From: Bradyrhizobium sp. dw_411
GTDB lineage: Bacteria > Pseudomonadota > Alphaproteobacteria > Rhizobiales > Xanthobacteraceae
Length of the DNA: 64,000 nucleotides
Direction of reading: 5' to 3'
NCBI RefSeq assembly: GCF_018449695.1
Contig: NZ_JAAVUY010000016.1
Coordinates: forward strand, 62,001 to 126,000
The notes beneath the pieces were generated by a model that saw only the letters and a list, made by a program, of their open reading frames with translations, was not told where the DNA came from and did not search any database. The translations under genes and the position numbers were made by a program. This document shows positions 37,273-42,228 of the stretch, piece by piece (position 1 is the stretch's first letter; each line of letters starts with the position of its first letter).

Positions 37273-37635
37273 TCACATGAAATCCGTTTTTTTGAGCAGT
37301 TTTAGTTCCCGGTGCTTTCGCATCCAGTTCAAGACATCTGTTGGCTTTCCCCGAAGCACCCTGAGTGATTTGCTACCCCGCGAATCCGTTTTGGCATCGC
37401 GGAATTGCCAAACCTCGTTAATGATGACCACATGCCAACGCTGTTTCGGGGGATCGTCCAGACGAAGGTCCATGACTTCAAACCGGAAAGCGTAGTCCTG
37501 GCCACTGAATCGATGCCGGTCGATCGAGCAGTTGACGCCGTGTGACGTCCAGGTTGTTACATCGCTTCCGATACCGGGTGGCTCAACGACATACTCGATA
37601 TCGGCAATTGTCCGGGCATTTCCGATCCGCGCCAT
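37273..37635 (-). CDS. Hypothetical protein, last gene of the ClC operon
   Basis: A 120-residue soluble protein, not recognised. It is rich in aromatic and charged residues (VEPPGIGSDVTTWTSHGVNC, WHVVIINEVWQFRD) and has a basic C-terminus. AGGTGG lies 3-4 bases before ATG 37635. The start is 11 bases downstream of the phosphatase stop, so it is very likely cotranscribed with the phosphatase, the EamA-like gene and the ClC gene. Confidence 0.65.
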   Translation of the reverse strand: MARIGNARTIADIEYVVEPPGIGSDVTTWTSHGVNCSIDRHRFSGQDYAFRFEVMDLRLDDPPKQRWHVVIINEVWQFRDAKTDSRGSKSLRVLRGKPTDVLNWMRKHRELKLLKKTDFM

Positions 37636-37646
37636 TATCCACCTGC

Positions 37647-38219
37647 TTACTGTATTTGGATGGCTGGCGAGACGACCCGCGCAAGCGTGATGTCCATCGC
37701 GATCGTGCTGTTACCCAGCCATGGAAAATGACCGTAGCGGAAGGAGAGTTGTGCCGCGGCCTCAGATGGCGGGCGTTTCTCGACAACCAATTTATAAAGT
37801 GCCGAGGCCAAGCCAGTCCGGTCGGCGCCAGCTTCGCAATGAATAAGGATAGGCCGGGCGGATGTTCTCAATAATCCCAATAGCTGAGACACTTGATCAT
37901 TGGTCAGCTCTCGACTCGCAGAAATGGGAAAGTCGACGTGTTCTACGCCGGCTGCGGCGCTAGCTTTCATTTCGTCATCGTACCAGAGACTGCCGGCATT
38001 GTTGCCGCGCAGGTTGATGATCGTCCGTATTCCGTTCTCGCGGATGCGATTTGAGAATTGCGAACCGCTGAGTTGTCCCGATCGATAGATGGCGCCTTCT
38101 TCGACTGCGTGAAAGTTGCCACTTAAGCGCAGGTATCCCGCCCACGTGCCGGTGAGCGCGATAATAACTCCGGCCACTGCGCCGAGTCGCTTGAGCCATT
38201 GATTTGTTCGGCTTTGCAT
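37647..38219 (-). CDS. Membrane-anchored tyrosine/dual-specificity phosphatase
   Basis: A 190-residue protein with one N-terminal transmembrane helix (GAVAGVIIALTGTWAGYL, residues 13-30) and a cysteine-phosphatase domain. The P-loop HCEAGADRTG places Cys128 and Arg134, and AIYRSGQLS and IRTIINLRG are typical of the DSP/tyrosine-phosphatase group that includes SiiiS-like bacterial enzymes. The catalytic domain would be periplasmic if the helix is an N-in anchor. It starts 10 bases after the EamA-like gene and ends 11 before the hypothetical gene, an arrangement that places it in the riboswitch-controlled ClC operon. Confidence 0.82.
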   Translation of the reverse strand: MQSRTNQWLKRLGAVAGVIIALTGTWAGYLRLSGNFHAVEEGAIYRSGQLSGSQFSNRIRENGIRTIINLRGNNAGSLWYDDEMKASAAAGVEHVDFPISASRELTNDQVSQLLGLLRTSARPILIHCEAGADRTGLASALYKLVVEKRPPSEAAAQLSFRYGHFPWLGNSTIAMDITLARVVSPAIQIQ

Positions 38220-38229
38220 CGACCGCCAA

Positions 38230-38607
38230 CTAAACCCGGTAAGCGATCAATATGGCGCCGCAGGTTATCATGAGCGCGCCCAGCCAATTTGGCAGCCTCA
38301 GCCGCTCGCCGAAGAACATGACCGCGAAGATCGACACGAATACGACGCTGAGCTTGTCGATCGGCGCAACGCGCGCCGCATCGCCAAGCTTGAGAGCCCG
38401 GAAATAACAGATCCAGGAGGCGCCGATCGCTGCACCCGACAAGACCAGAAAAAGCCATGTCTTTGCCGACACCGTGGACGGCTGCTGCCAGTGTCCCGTT
38501 CCGTAGACGATAAGCCTGGCAGCCAGCGTAATGACGATGGTCTGGATAAACGTCGCAAAGTCAGAGTTGACGTTCTCGAAGACCCAGGAGGTGAGCAGGT
38601 TCTTCAC
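38230..38607 (-). CDS. EamA-domain membrane protein, apparently lacking helix 1
   Basis: A 125-residue protein matching single-EamA-domain transporters: ENVNSDFATFIQTIVITLAA, GASWICYFRALKLGDAARVA and PIDKLSVVFVSIFAVMFFGE are hallmarks. These proteins usually have about 140 residues and five helices, starting with a helix before (V)ENVNSDFAT. Here that helix is replaced by MKNLLTSWVF and only four helices are evident. Its GTG start is 5 bases after the ClC stop, with an in-frame TGA upstream, so the gene appears 5'-truncated or re-started after fusion to the ClC gene. Function as a small-molecule exporter is family inference. Confidence 0.72.
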   Translation of the reverse strand: MKNLLTSWVFENVNSDFATFIQTIVITLAARLIVYGTGHWQQPSTVSAKTWLFLVLSGAAIGASWICYFRALKLGDAARVAPIDKLSVVFVSIFAVMFFGERLRLPNWLGALMITCGAILIAYRV

Positions 38608-38612
38608 CCCGG

Positions 38613-40421
38613 TTAAGCTCGCAACGCTTCATCTATTTTGACTACGTCGCCTGTCAGGTCCCAGTGTTCGATATGCTTGTAAACGATAACTTTGCGCTTC
38701 AGCATGTCGCCATGCGTGCGGCAAAACTCCTCGAGCTCGGCGCGGGGCGCAATAAGTTCCACGCACATCGTCAGGTCCGGGTTTGATATTTCGTATCCTT
38801 CATCTTCCAGCTTGCCGCGGTTGCTGTAACCAAAATGGGTGTGATGCGCGGTCGCGTTCATGATGCCGGCCGCCTTGGCCTGGATCACCAGCTCGCGGTA
38901 GAGCGGCCGGCCGCCAAATAAACGACTGCCCGTGCCCACTGCCTTTTCGCGCGGCTTCAGATAAATTCGAACCATGCCAATTTCTTTATGCGTGAGTGTA
39001 TGACGAGCCATGTTTTCTACTTTCTTGGTTGGAAGGGGGAGGCGGCTTGATCGCGCTTGAACCCGGTCGACGAAGTCGCCGAAGGCCTGGACGTTCAGAT
39101 CCCGAACCTGGCGCACCGACAGATCGGGAGGAATGAAGGCGGCCGCCGTCTTGGGCGTACCAAGGCGTTGGGCCATGTAGATGCTGGAATGGCCACTGCA
39201 GAGATACGCAACAAAGCAGGCGACTGCGATGTAGACAGCGTGGAGAGAGCCAAACAGTTCAATGCCCATGATCATGCAGGCGAGCGGGGTGTTGGTGGCG
39301 CCGGCAAAGACAGCCACAAACCCAAGGCCGGCGAACAAGTCGGACGGCGCGCCGAAGACGACGGCAAGCGCATTTCCAAGCGCCGCGCCGATAAAAAACA
39401 GTGGCGTTACCTCGCCGCCTTTAAAACCGCTGCTCAGCGTGACGACCGTGAAAATCGTTTTCCAAAGCCAGCTCCAATGATCGACCCGACCAGGCAGGAA
39501 AAAGCCCGCGATGGTGGCATCCGCTGGATTAGGAGACCACACGCCGAGGCCAAGATATTCGCGCGTGCCCAAGGCGAAGACGAGACCAATCAATATGGCA
39601 CTGGCAATAACCGGCCGAAGCGGCGCGTATGGGCAGATCGCTTTGTATGCAGCGCTTACCAAGTGAGAAAATTCACTGAAGAAGCGAGCGGCCAAACCAA
39701 ATAGGACGCCTGCTGCCACCACCTTGAGCAGCAGCAGGGCATTTAAATGAAACCCTGACGTTTCCGAGACATTCGCAAGATAGTTGATGGAGTAATGGGT
39801 GTGTTCGATCCCCCAGGCGTGGCAGCTCCAGTCTCCAGCGATGGCGGCCATCAGGCAGGGAAGCAGCGCCTCATATTGCATGCGCCCGATTGTCAGGACT
39901 TCGAGGGCGAACACGGCGCCCGCGATAGGCGTTCCAAACACCGCGCCAAAGCCGGCCGCAATGCCGGCCATCAAGACGATCCTGATGTCGGCAGGCGACA
40001 GTTTGAACGTTTTGGCAAAGGCGCTGGCAATGCTGCCACCCAGTTGCACGGCCGTCCCCTCGCGACCAGCGGAGCCCCCCACCAGATGGGTCAATACAGT
40101 GGTAATGAGGATGAACGGCGCCATGCGGAGCGGGACGCCGCCGCCGGGCTCATGAATCTGTTCGACGATCAGATTATTGCCGCCCTCGGCCGATCGGCCG
40201 AAGCGCTGATAGGCCTGCACCATCAGGAAACCGGCGATTGGCATTCCGTAGATGAGCCAGGGGAAACTAAAACGTGCCTGGGTCGCTCTATCCAACCCCC
40301 ATAAGAATAAGGCGCATAAGGAGCCGACGACCGCAGCCATCGGCACAACAATGCCAATCCATTTGATCAGGCTTCGCAACTGCTCGAAGCGGAGGCCGAT
40401 AAAGCCCGAAGGGGACATCAT
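38613..40421 (-). CDS. ClC-type (probably fluoride) antiporter fused to DUF190
   Basis: A 602-residue protein. Residues 1-about 440 are a ClC channel/antiporter with around ten helices: [13 protein letters not shown] carries the gating Glu, [18 protein letters not shown] the second signature, and [16 protein letters not shown] the third. [13 protein letters not shown] stands where Cl- transporters have the Ser-containing GSGIP, a change known in fluoride-specific CLC-F proteins. Residues about 470-600 form a DUF190 domain (PII-like; [13 protein letters not shown] ... [15 protein letters not shown]), usually encoded as a separate gene near crcB. Riboswitch control and crcB linkage support fluoride/H+ antiport out of the cell. 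The start ATG 40421 overlaps the stop of a 21-codon leader (ATGA); TTG 40478 is an alternative start. Confidence 0.88.
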
Positions 40422-40483
40422 CGCGCACCGCCCGCGGCAGCGCCGATTTCGAACCCAAAGTATGATATCAAAAAACAAAACAT
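40418..40483 (-). CDS. 21-codon leader ORF translationally coupled to the ClC gene
   Basis: ATG 40483 is preceded by GAAGGAGTAGGGTC, the best ribosome-binding site in the region. The frame encodes 21 residues (start [10 protein letters not shown], end GGAR), and its TGA at 40420-40418 overlaps the ATG of the ClC gene at 40421 (ATGA). The ClC start itself has no good ribosome-binding site, so translation of the antiporter probably depends on ribosomes arriving from this leader, whose own site can pair with the riboswitch. The peptide need not have a function. Confidence 0.55.
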
Positions 40484-40515
40484 GACCCTACTCCTTCGCG
40501 CGAGAGGCGAATTAA

Positions 40516-40580
40516 GTAGGAGTCATCAGCTTCTCTTGGAAGCGGTTCGGCCCGAGTGGCCCGGCAGAATCCATTACCGT
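40516..40580 (-). ncRNA. Fluoride riboswitch (crcB motif), minus strand, for the ClC operon
   Basis: On the minus strand the 3' half is canonical: AACCGCTTC ... GAAGC then TGATGACTCCTAC. The 5' half is divergent: GGTAATGGATTCTGCC could form P1 and offer GGATTC to pair with GACTCC (5 of 6 pairs), and a 14-base hairpin (GGCC-ACTC-GGGCC) is inserted before P2. Downstream, ACTCC is complementary to GGAGT of the leader's ribosome-binding site, supported by TTCGC/GCGAA between them. Without fluoride this stem would hide the site; with fluoride ACTCC would be held in the pseudoknot and translation allowed. The mechanism is inference. Confidence 0.75.
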
Positions 40581-40830
40581 TATCATCACTTAGCGATAGG
40601 GCAGCAATACTGTCAATATTACTTTGTTAGGCACCGGATGCTCAGAAATTACGCCTCGCAAGAAATGACTTGGGTGTCCGTTCTTTTCGTTGCAGTGCAC
40701 GTATTTATGTATCGTCGCGCGGGTTGCGCGTACGGTTTTCGTTTCTGGCGCAGAGCGTGTTCGGGTCACAGTCGGGGTTGCGATGCAGCCTTGCCGAGCG
40801 AAAAAGTCTGGCGTATTTTTCTTGTGTTGA

Positions 40831-40877
40831 TGGGGATGGAGTCCCCCGATAACCGCCGAGAGGCTGATGACTCCTAC
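40831..40877 (+). ncRNA. Fluoride riboswitch (crcB motif), plus strand, for crcB
   Basis: The sequence matches the fluoride aptamer closely: P1 GGGG (40832-40835)/CCCC (40844-40847), loop strand GGAGTC (40838-40843) pairing with GACTCC (40869-40874) as the pseudoknot, AACC then GCC-GAGA-GGC as the second helix, and the hallmark CTGATGACTCCTAC. It lies 72 bases upstream of the 59-residue membrane protein gene that precedes crcB. Fluoride binding (through Mg2+) stabilises the pseudoknot and turns on export genes. Confidence 0.93.
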
Positions 40878-40900
40878 CGGGCGCAACGCGCCGGTAGGAG
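40871..40900 (+). promoter_or_regulatory. Alternative hairpin (expression platform) of the plus-strand riboswitch
   Basis: CTCCTACCGG and CCGGTAGGAG are perfect inverted copies (10 bp), closed by a further CGC/GCG. The 5' arm contains the CTCC used by the aptamer pseudoknot, so hairpin and ligand-bound aptamer cannot coexist. There is no T-run behind it, so it may act through Rho, pausing or ribosome access rather than as a classic intrinsic terminator. Confidence 0.7.
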
Positions 40901-40948
40901 CTTGCGCACCGCCGGTCTCGTTGCCCCTAACCAACAGAGGGGTGGCAA

Positions 40949-41128
40949 ATGGATAAACTTCCAGATTCTTTATCAATCGCGCTTTGGCTGGTCGGATCGC
41001 TTTGGATCGTTGGCTTCATCGCTTTTCTTGGCGACGCACCTGGCTCTCTTGTCGCCGCAACTTTCGTGGCGGGTTTAGTTGCCGGGGGTTTTGAGTGGTG
41101 GGTTGCAACCCGGCGGGCAGGACAATGA
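40949..41128 (+). CDS. 59-residue two-helix membrane protein overlapping crcB
   Basis: A 59-residue protein beginning MDKLPDSLSIALWLVG with two hydrophobic helices (about residues 8-28 and 32-50) joined by GDAPGS and ending in a basic tail (TRRAGQ). AGAGGGG lies 6 bases before the ATG, and its TGA (41126-41128) overlaps the crcB ATG (41125) as ATGA, so crcB translation is probably coupled to it. It is the first gene under the plus-strand fluoride riboswitch. I do not recognise a family. It could be a partner or assembly factor of the dual-topology CrcB dimer, or a separate fluoride-stress protein; both are inference. Confidence 0.75.
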   Translation: MDKLPDSLSIALWLVGSLWIVGFIAFLGDAPGSLVAATFVAGLVAGGFEWWVATRRAGQ

Positions 41129-41502
41129 ACCTGCAATTCATCATCGCGGTCGCGGTTGGCGGTTCGATTGGATCAGTCGCCAGATATTTGGTGGCAATCG
41201 GATCGAGTAAAGTCTTCGGATCAGATTTTCCGTGGGGCATTTTTATCATTAACGTCACGGGCTCGTTCCTGATCGGCGCCCTCCTCGGTCTTTTTGCGAC
41301 AAGGTGGGACGTGCCGCAAGCAGTCCGGATATTTCTCACCGTCGGCATCTGTGGCGGCTACACGACGTTCTCGACGTTCTCATTGGACAGCTATTATTTG
41401 ATGGAACGTGGAGAACTCGGCGCTGCGCTGCTGTACATGATTGGTTCGGTGCTCCTGTCGATCAGCGCTTTTGGCGGAGGCCTTTATCTCACCCGGCTTT
41501 GA
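41125..41502 (+). CDS. crcB: Fluoride channel CrcB/Fluc
   Basis: A 125-residue, four-helix protein with all CrcB hallmarks: GGSIGSVARYLV, NVTGSFLIGALLGL (the pore Asn and the TGSFxxG break) and GICGGYTTFSTFSLD (the Phe-box and the central Na+-site loop). Fluc proteins form dual-topology dimers that let F- leave the cytosol. The start at 41125 is set by the ATGA overlap with the preceding small gene and fits the family's usual N-terminus; a longer frame from 41095 lies inside that gene. Control is by the fluoride riboswitch at 40831. Confidence 0.95.
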   Translation: MNLQFIIAVAVGGSIGSVARYLVAIGSSKVFGSDFPWGIFIINVTGSFLIGALLGLFATRWDVPQAVRIFLTVGICGGYTTFSTFSLDSYYLMERGELGAALLYMIGSVLLSISAFGGGLYLTRL

Positions 41503-41938
41503 TTGATCGAATCTAATTTCGGGTTTGGCGGACATGAAGATGTCCGACTTGAGTCCAATATGCGTACCGAAGCAGACGTTTCCGATCGCCCACAAATTTA
41601 TGGATTGACACTGCAAAAACGGCGCGCACGCGTGATTTGCCCGTCGCGTTAATCAGTCGCAACTGCCGTTGTTGATCGCGACCCCAAATCAAAGGCAAAA
41701 TCACCGCGTCTCGTCCCTCATGAGGGGCGTTTCGCGATCGTCACGGACGCGGGATGGGATGCGGTGGACGTTAGCAGCGCCTTTGACGAAAGCGCTGATA
41801 ACGGACGGCGAGGTCGTGTGGTCCTGACGCCTCGACGCTGGCGTCAAGTTTCGCGCAGAAGACTGCGCGAGGCGACGGTGACAAAAGAGCCCGATCACCG
41901 GGGAGAGCGCGAAGGAAACCGTTAAAACCATTGCGTGC
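41503..41938. other. Gene-free sequence leading into the repeat cluster
   Basis: No gene seen. A small hairpin (tcggacat/atgtccga-like pairing near 41528-41550) lies just past crcB and may end its transcript. From about 41700 the sequence (ccctcatgaggggcgtttcgcgatcgtcacggacgcgggatggg...) has the look of a Bradyrhizobium dispersed-repeat remnant (position 41700-41930), without coding capacity. Confidence 0.4.
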
Positions 41939-42034
41939 GGGAATGCCGGGTGATCCCGGTGTACCTGTGGCTTCTACCCCTGTGCTTTTTTGTTGCACAG
42001 GGGGCTGCGGGTGCAGCGGGCACCCGGCATTCCC
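41939..42034. repeat. Palindromic element with perfect 14-bp ends
   Basis: GGGAATGCCGGGTG (41939-41952) and CACCCGGCATTCCC (42021-42034) are exact inverted copies. Inside them CCCCTGTGC and GCACAGGGG pair around a T-run. The whole 96 bases could fold as one long hairpin. Confidence 0.8.
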
Positions 42035-42127
42035 CACGCCCTCTGATTTCAGGGCGGAAGATTTCAGGCATGACTCGGGCGTGATGGGCCGCGGGAATGC
42101 GGAGGTATGTGTTGCGGGTAGGACGCG

Positions 42128-42209
42128 GTCATTGCGAGCGAAGCGAAGCAATCCACACTTCCTTGGCTGCTGGATGGATTGCTGCGTCGCTTCGCGCCTC
42201 GCAATGACG
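42128..42209. repeat. Palindromic element GTCATTGCGAGCGAAGCG...
   Basis: The left end gtcattgcgagcgaagcgaa and the right end cgcttcgcgcctcgcaatgac form a long imperfect inverted repeat with aatccacact/ggatggattg in the middle. This is a very common intergenic palindrome in Bradyrhizobium-type genomes. Confidence 0.85.
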
Positions 42210-42228
42210 ATCATGAAATACGAAGTCT

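Follow-up and report, generated by a model that had tools for sequence, protein, structure and literature searches.

Two divergent fluoride riboswitches preceding a clcF operon and a crcB unit in Bradyrhizobium sp. dw_411

Described fluoride riboswitch loci and the aptamer pair of the window

The crcB-motif RNA (RF01734) is known from regions before crcB or eriC-F/clcF, where a downstream hairpin competes for the pseudoknot strand. The two aptamers described here belong to the same family, precede the same types of gene and are likewise followed by hairpins predicted to compete for this strand, but they are arranged in opposite directions, with one copy for each type of exporter, and the clcF copy differs further in having a kept pseudoknot mismatch and a leader ORF probably coupled to clcF. 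In a passage of a 2024 review (PMC11139923), CLC-F and Fluc are described as excluding each other as a rule, both being present in about 3% of the surveyed strains. In the clcF-DUF190-crcB-EamA operons of Agrobacterium/Rhizobium plasmids (NZ_CP049219.1 and NZ_CP049251.1), the clcF-DUF190 orthologue is 74.8% and 66.0% identical, respectively, to that studied here, and these operons share its clcF leader with riboswitch and leader ORF; however, their crcB lies behind clcF in the same direction under a single riboswitch, whereas the present arrangement is divergent and has two. Riboswitch-ORF59-crcB units from other genus genomes (L102 and L097, for example) have the order found here, from the aptamer through the switch hairpin and the small ORF to crcB, but no facing clcF unit. 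For Enterobacter cloacae FRM, an excerpt of the published description (PMC5533749) reports a fluoride-induced six-gene operon on a genomic island with crcB under RF01734; as presented there, it has one riboswitch, one direction and no clcF, whereas two riboswitches and a clcF are present here.

A comparable overlap of reading frames is found in the ppe2 B12 riboswitch of M. tuberculosis, in which the stop codon of the uORF uPPE2 overlaps the main start (AUGA) and PPE2 expression needs translation of the uORF, according to an excerpt of the source (PMC11260477). Common to both systems are a riboswitch leader and a uORF with a stop codon overlapping the start of the main gene. As far as that excerpt goes, however, ppe2 is a B12 OFF switch studied experimentally in one species, whereas the present case concerns fluoride, is presumably an ON switch and rests on comparison over many genera. 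Among the open-licence papers listed in a literature search, none on divergent or uORF-linked fluoride riboswitches was found. The parts are known and their combination is new; the more general findings are the leader ORF, which is kept in relatives, and the mismatch subtype.

The DNA analysed (hereafter the window) is a stretch of 64,000 nucleotides from Bradyrhizobium sp. dw_411 (contig NZ_JAAVUY010000016.1, positions 62,001 to 126,000). Searching with cmscan (RF01734, Rfam 15) placed one aptamer at 40823..40883 on the plus strand, before the crcB unit (57.5 bits, E 2.5e-13), and the other at 40510..40587 on the minus strand, before the clcF unit (47.5 bits, E 4.6e-10). Both scored higher than the gathering score of 34 and belong to RF01734 by covariance-model score; the minus-strand match, the absence of which would have spoken against the original prediction, was thus present. 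A scan of all 7.3 Mb (54 contigs) gave no third match in the genome. The 14-base hallmark CTGATGACTCCTAC was located exactly where it had been reported, once per strand, at 40864-40877 (+) and 40529-40516 (-), and allowing up to one mismatch still gave these two sites in the window. Chance motif matches were rejected, since 100 shuffled windows contained a mean of 0.01 hallmark matches, none of them having two, and the covariance model matched on both strands.

The minus copy had been described as canonical in its 3′ half. This half is indeed canonical, but the limitation to it does not hold, as the entire aptamer aligned, with a 12-nt insert separating P1 and P3 in the cmscan alignment. In the leader alignment this insert, also present in close relatives, forms a small hairpin that varies in sequence. 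An origin of the pair by recent duplication of a single riboswitch was rejected, because the copies differ in insert, pseudoknot and platform and represent different subtypes.

The outer span of the aptamer pair is 40510-40883, and the long coding sequences closest to it begin at 40421 (-, clcF) and 40949 (+, a 59-aa ORF), which makes the shared region somewhat longer than the 470 bases originally given. It was also noticed that the first reading frame behind each switch is a short ORF and not an exporter gene, a feature overlooked before. The observation of two divergent fluoride riboswitches is confirmed as real and correctly read. That both are true fluoride riboswitches, divergently transcribed from promoters of their own, forms part of an explanation which we consider highly probable as a whole (see below), and both leaders would be expected to respond to fluoride.

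The clcF operon and its leader reading frame

On the minus strand, clcF (38613..40421) encodes a 602-aa protein with a C-terminal DUF190 (PF00654, PF02641). The fluoride-specific CLC signatures, given in the cited passage of PMC11139923 as GNNLI/GMGLI, GREGT/V and GEVTP, were all found in the product (GNNLI at 81, GREGT at 119 and GEVTP at 336). With these motifs present, and with no PDB relatives (E up to 1e-10) other than 6d0j/6d0k/6d0n, all of a CLC-type fluoride/proton antiporter, a chloride-type ClC was rejected. Judged by motifs and solved relatives, the main gene of the minus unit is a F-/H+ antiporter of the CLC-F type; the exporter types were thus correctly predicted for both directions, the plus operon containing a CrcB above curated cut-offs.

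Behind clcF, on the same strand, are an EamA-like transporter ORF (38230..38607), recognised by domain search and comparison with relatives, a DSP/PTP-like phosphatase ORF (37647..38219; domain search) and an uncharacterised 120-aa ORF (37273..37635) whose relatives are recurrent in fluoride operons. The identical order was found in L118 (Tardiphaga robiniae), and L144 keeps it with one additional small ORF. Relatives of the 120-aa protein were seen in the fluoride operons L118, L144, L085 and L091, that of L085 having no Pfam match. The EamA-like ORF of the window is about 20 residues shorter near its N-terminus than those of relatives (W-ALLSAAFAALTA... region), possibly by in-frame loss.

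A likely promoter of the clcF unit (40588..40616, minus strand) consists of a -35 box TTGACA (40616-40611), a 17-nt spacer and a -10 box CTAAGT (40593-40588). The TTGAC box was invariant in all 23 aligned clcF leaders, at a similar distance to the aptamer. A generic sigma-70 promoter scan picked up neither this promoter nor the one proposed for the crcB unit. Downstream, a switch hairpin (40482..40526, minus strand; -20.9 kcal/mol alone) shares ACUCCUAC with the aptamer, is present in the alignment consensus and covers the Shine-Dalgarno (SD) sequence AAGGAG (40496-40491) of a 21-codon leader ORF (40418..40483, minus strand), the TGA of which overlaps the clcF ATG (ATGA). With an SD and start codon, an open frame and a stop/start overlap that is kept in relatives, this ORF qualifies as a uORF.

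The leader-ORF motif, AAGGAG in the switch hairpin with an ATG or GTG 7 bases further on, was present in 28 of 40 clcF leaders and missing in 12. When the clcF starts were set by aligning the clcF protein, 27 of the 28 motif-bearing leaders had a short frame opening at this ATG or GTG and ending in a stop that overlaps the start of clcF (ATGA or TGATG). The spacers measured 56, 62, 65, 68, 71, 77 and 80 bases, all being 2 modulo 3, and leader ORFs of relatives ranged from 18 to 27 codons; in the exception, L128, the spacer is 66 and the leader ORF fuses in frame into clcF. This frame was open in 28/28 leaders, as compared with 21/28 and 13/28 for the others. After removal of spacers more than 75% alike, 18 leaders remained, of which 17 had the overlap, and the open frames numbered 18 (leader-ORF frame), 11 and 6. 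Among four loci found later, L166 and L167 fit the overlap rule and L170 and L149 (sister group) are without overlap. In four sphingomonad leaders (L108, L116 and two in L117), the same SD stands before a GTG at which clcF is annotated to begin (positions counted by hand). The sequence of the leader peptide is not conserved among relatives; therefore, coupling rather than the peptide is likely to be the function, namely translational coupling to clcF.

In the window, the switch hairpin is followed by a U-rich, terminator-like tail GUUUUGUUUUUUGAUAU (40465..40481, minus strand; leader alignment and fold). The stable hairpin of -20.9 kcal/mol together with the tail GUUUUGUUUUUU has the make-up of an intrinsic terminator, and a terminator inside the leader ORF is therefore predicted. 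A generic terminator scan reported none on the minus side, the hairpin being outside the loop limits of the scan. These features could be taken to mean that the leader ORF is a by-product, clcF being translated from its own SD and the riboswitch acting on transcription only; a GGAGC a few bases upstream of the clcF ATG in many relatives would agree with this. We consider it unlikely, however, as the frame and the stop/start overlap have been preserved over seven spacer lengths, the U-tract is confined to the window (1/23 aligned clcF leaders) and missing in the other 22, and the same SD and GTG serve as the annotated clcF start in the four sphingomonad leaders.

In modelled docking, the mean unpaired value of the leader-ORF SD rose modestly, from 0.19 to 0.32, and that of clcF's own SD-like stretch was unchanged at 0.13. 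The fold z-scores of -1.93 and -2.45 count against the overall explanation given below, and so does the near absence of two-sided compensatory change, which the clcF leader had at 1 of 21 predicted pairs.

The crcB unit and the divergent layout

On the plus strand, a possible promoter of the crcB unit (40791..40819; TTGCCG, 17 nt, TATTTT) was picked by eye and is weak; its CTTG is partly conserved in 7 aligned leaders. The plus switch hairpin CUCCUACCGG...CCGGUAGGAG (40871..40900; -22.7 kcal/mol alone) is conserved in the 7 aligned leaders and has CUCCUAC in common with the aptamer. No U-tract follows it, the tail being UUGCGCACC, and it does not qualify as an intrinsic terminator. Fold prediction gave a second plus hairpin (40921..40948) covering the SD of the next ORF; similar complementary arms were seen by eye in 5 other leaders of the alignment. 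The mean unpaired value of this SD rose in modelled docking from 0.19 to 0.39, a modest change.

The unit starts with a small membrane ORF of 59 aa (ORF59, 40949..41128), the stop codon of which overlaps the crcB ATG as ATGA. The crcB gene (41125..41502) encodes a 125-aa Fluc fluoride channel subunit, a family membership based on matches above cut-off to PF02537, TIGR00494 (97.8 bits; cut-off 80.45) and PRK14195 (161.2; cut-off 129). ORF59 had no Pfam match and, at E 0.01, no plasmid match. Its relatives lie behind riboswitches of the genus, with one in 17 of the 51 riboswitch loci of three kilobases each (L003-L053), these loci being the best-scoring ones retained from the genus scans, several from one genome; a crcB match was present in 16 of the 17 ORF59-bearing loci, on the opposite strand in one (L044). 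ORF59 was seen as the first ORF behind many fluoride riboswitches of the genus, and in some leaders (L102, L021, L016 and others), not including that of the window, its frame is open back to the aptamer's own ATG.

The clcF of the window type (>40% identity) was found in 1 of 60 genus genomes, its own. At E up to 1e-80, it was found in 4 of 385 class genomes and 8 of 391 family genomes, its own included. It also occurred on conjugative and other plasmids. Using a covariance model built from 36 aptamers, an aptamer was detected near clcF in 38 of 44 loci (none in L113, L127, L139, L140, L143 and L145) and in 4/4 further clcF loci, the remaining loci of the later search being contigs already covered. 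A second aptamer facing that of clcF was found in 0/48 other clcF loci, among which the upstream sequence was short in L109, L143, L147 and L110-L113.

RF01734 matches were present in 193 of 265 genus genomes, and 20 other multi-hit genomes of the genus were re-searched for facing pairs, defined as less than 1 kb apart with both members above cut-off. In the genus, such pairs were found in the window, G205 (95 bases) and G160 (520 bases), and pairs below cut-off in G253 (33.4 and 33.4 bits) and G126 (30.2 and 24.5). In an order sample (297 genomes, 36 with a match), G791 had two facing pairs; in a phylum sample (398 genomes, 67 with a match) the pair of the window was the only one; and the model built from the 36 aptamers revealed one in L128 (MAG). 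The genus, order and phylum samples overlap, and stricter filters apply to samples of more than 40 genomes. The five divergent pairs counted in addition to the window are rare and serve other gene sets: 1) MutS-like versus NUDIX in G205, 2) Na+/H+ exchanger versus a relative of the 120-aa ORF, crcB and EamA in G160, 3) MFS versus an unknown ORF and 4) NADH-dehydrogenase-like versus MutS-like in G791, and 5) histidine phosphatase versus enolase in L128. In L166, crcB and clcF point away from each other, and an aptamer was found before clcF but not before crcB. Among the loci surveyed, the window alone had CLC-F opposite CrcB with both units preceded by an aptamer. The claim that the layout is not a standard one thus stands for clcF versus crcB, but divergent fluoride-riboswitch pairs as such recur elsewhere.

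The five other pairs, with their different genes, and the divergent crcB of L166 might suggest that the layout was selected as a device for co-regulation and is not a chance neighbourhood of modules. This is improbable in our judgement, since each riboswitch would sense fluoride by itself and a shared region is therefore not required; moreover, the crcB side of L166 is without aptamer, and a second genome with a clcF/crcB aptamer pair was not found in the samples searched. As each unit is found alone elsewhere, the window looks like two modules brought head to head. Most likely, the riboswitch-ORF59-crcB unit native to the genus was joined by a clcF module spreading horizontally, and the events would have taken place in this order. 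The GC content is about 0.55-0.59 at 37-42 kb versus 0.61-0.65 at 42-45 kb. A clean empty site in relatives was not found among the matches listed, the core blocks being on different contigs. Just downstream of crcB there is a dispersed repeat (~41630-42210), with at least 8 other sites in the genome at 78-84%.

Pseudoknot mismatch and proposed switching

As read from the sequence, the plus pseudoknot GGAGUC/GACUCC has six standard pairs, and the minus pseudoknot GGAUUC/GACUCC has five pairs and one U.C mismatch. A mismatch at this place, the fourth pair from the GG end (third from top), was found in 36 of 40 clcF-linked aptamers, rows L107 and L112 being excluded from the count. The letters were mostly U.C, and also U.U, A.C (L128) and C.U (L109), and the clcF-linked aptamers of L141 and L142 (Chitinophaga) pair fully. 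In the clcF-linked alphaproteobacterial aptamers, the mismatch is kept at one position. The same position is paired in 34 of the 36 genus aptamers of the model, the others being the minus copy of the window and one misread row. That the position stays mismatched although its letters vary suggests selection favouring a softer pseudoknot. By analogy, and as a link drawn by ourselves, this would fit the statement, in an excerpt of PMC11077080, that a wobble at the top pseudoknot pair is critical for switching of the fluoride riboswitch.

A mismatch within a six-pair pseudoknot and a lower score (47.5 versus 57.5 bits) are also what a decayed or insensitive minus aptamer might have, the fluoride response then being limited to the crcB side. 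Decay, however, would have lost the insert, mismatch, promoter and hairpin, which are kept in distant relatives and even in other families, and we therefore regard this possibility as very unlikely. Tentatively, and with somewhat less than even confidence, we propose a distinct subtype of fluoride riboswitch, in which the mismatch would soften the aptamer, the platform hairpin would invade it and the output would be the leader ORF coupled to clcF. In the window, this output would be stacked with a terminator and face a riboswitch of another platform, and the thresholds of channel and antiporter may differ.

Binding of fluoride-Mg would stabilise the pseudoknot of each aptamer, and the ACUCCUAC strand would then be unable to pair into the switch hairpin that follows. 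For the clcF unit, this would uncover the SD of the 21-codon leader ORF, and ribosomes ending this ORF would begin again at the clcF ATG that overlaps its stop (termination-reinitiation). In the window strain, the minus hairpin with its U-tract should, in addition, terminate transcription in the absence of fluoride. For the crcB unit, bound fluoride would free the ORF59-crcB mRNA, via transcription or translation. One signal would thereby raise both the F-/H+ antiporter and the fluoride channel. Taken as a whole, the explanation by two fluoride ON switches, coupling through the leader ORF and an origin from two modules is one that we hold with high confidence; it builds on the aptamers, the genes, the ORF overlaps, their conservation and the separate existence of both units, which were observed directly. 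That the neighbourhood is an assembly error is hardly credible: the genome is a draft and has the dispersed repeat just downstream of crcB, but the junction lies within a 166-kb contig, the repeat is not between the units and both aptamers are in one intergenic region.

The genome has both CLC-F and Fluc, with a separate riboswitch for each; a second crcB, on contig C6, has none. The window offers a natural test of the division of labour between the two exporter types, and of whether one ligand, acting through two riboswitches that differ in pseudoknot strength and platform, gives different response levels. The leader ORF would extend the interplay of riboswitch and uORF, described for B12 in M. 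tuberculosis in the excerpt of PMC11260477, to fluoride and to many genera.

Two further observations concern fluoride riboswitches at other loci. The genus genome G167 (4.3 Mb) contained 11 RF01734 matches, several of them within one 36-kb contig (L088 and L089, G167:C15; L090). In L149 and L084, pairs of MutS-like ATPase genes were located directly behind fluoride riboswitches, and PF00488 was found in the gene tested from each pair.
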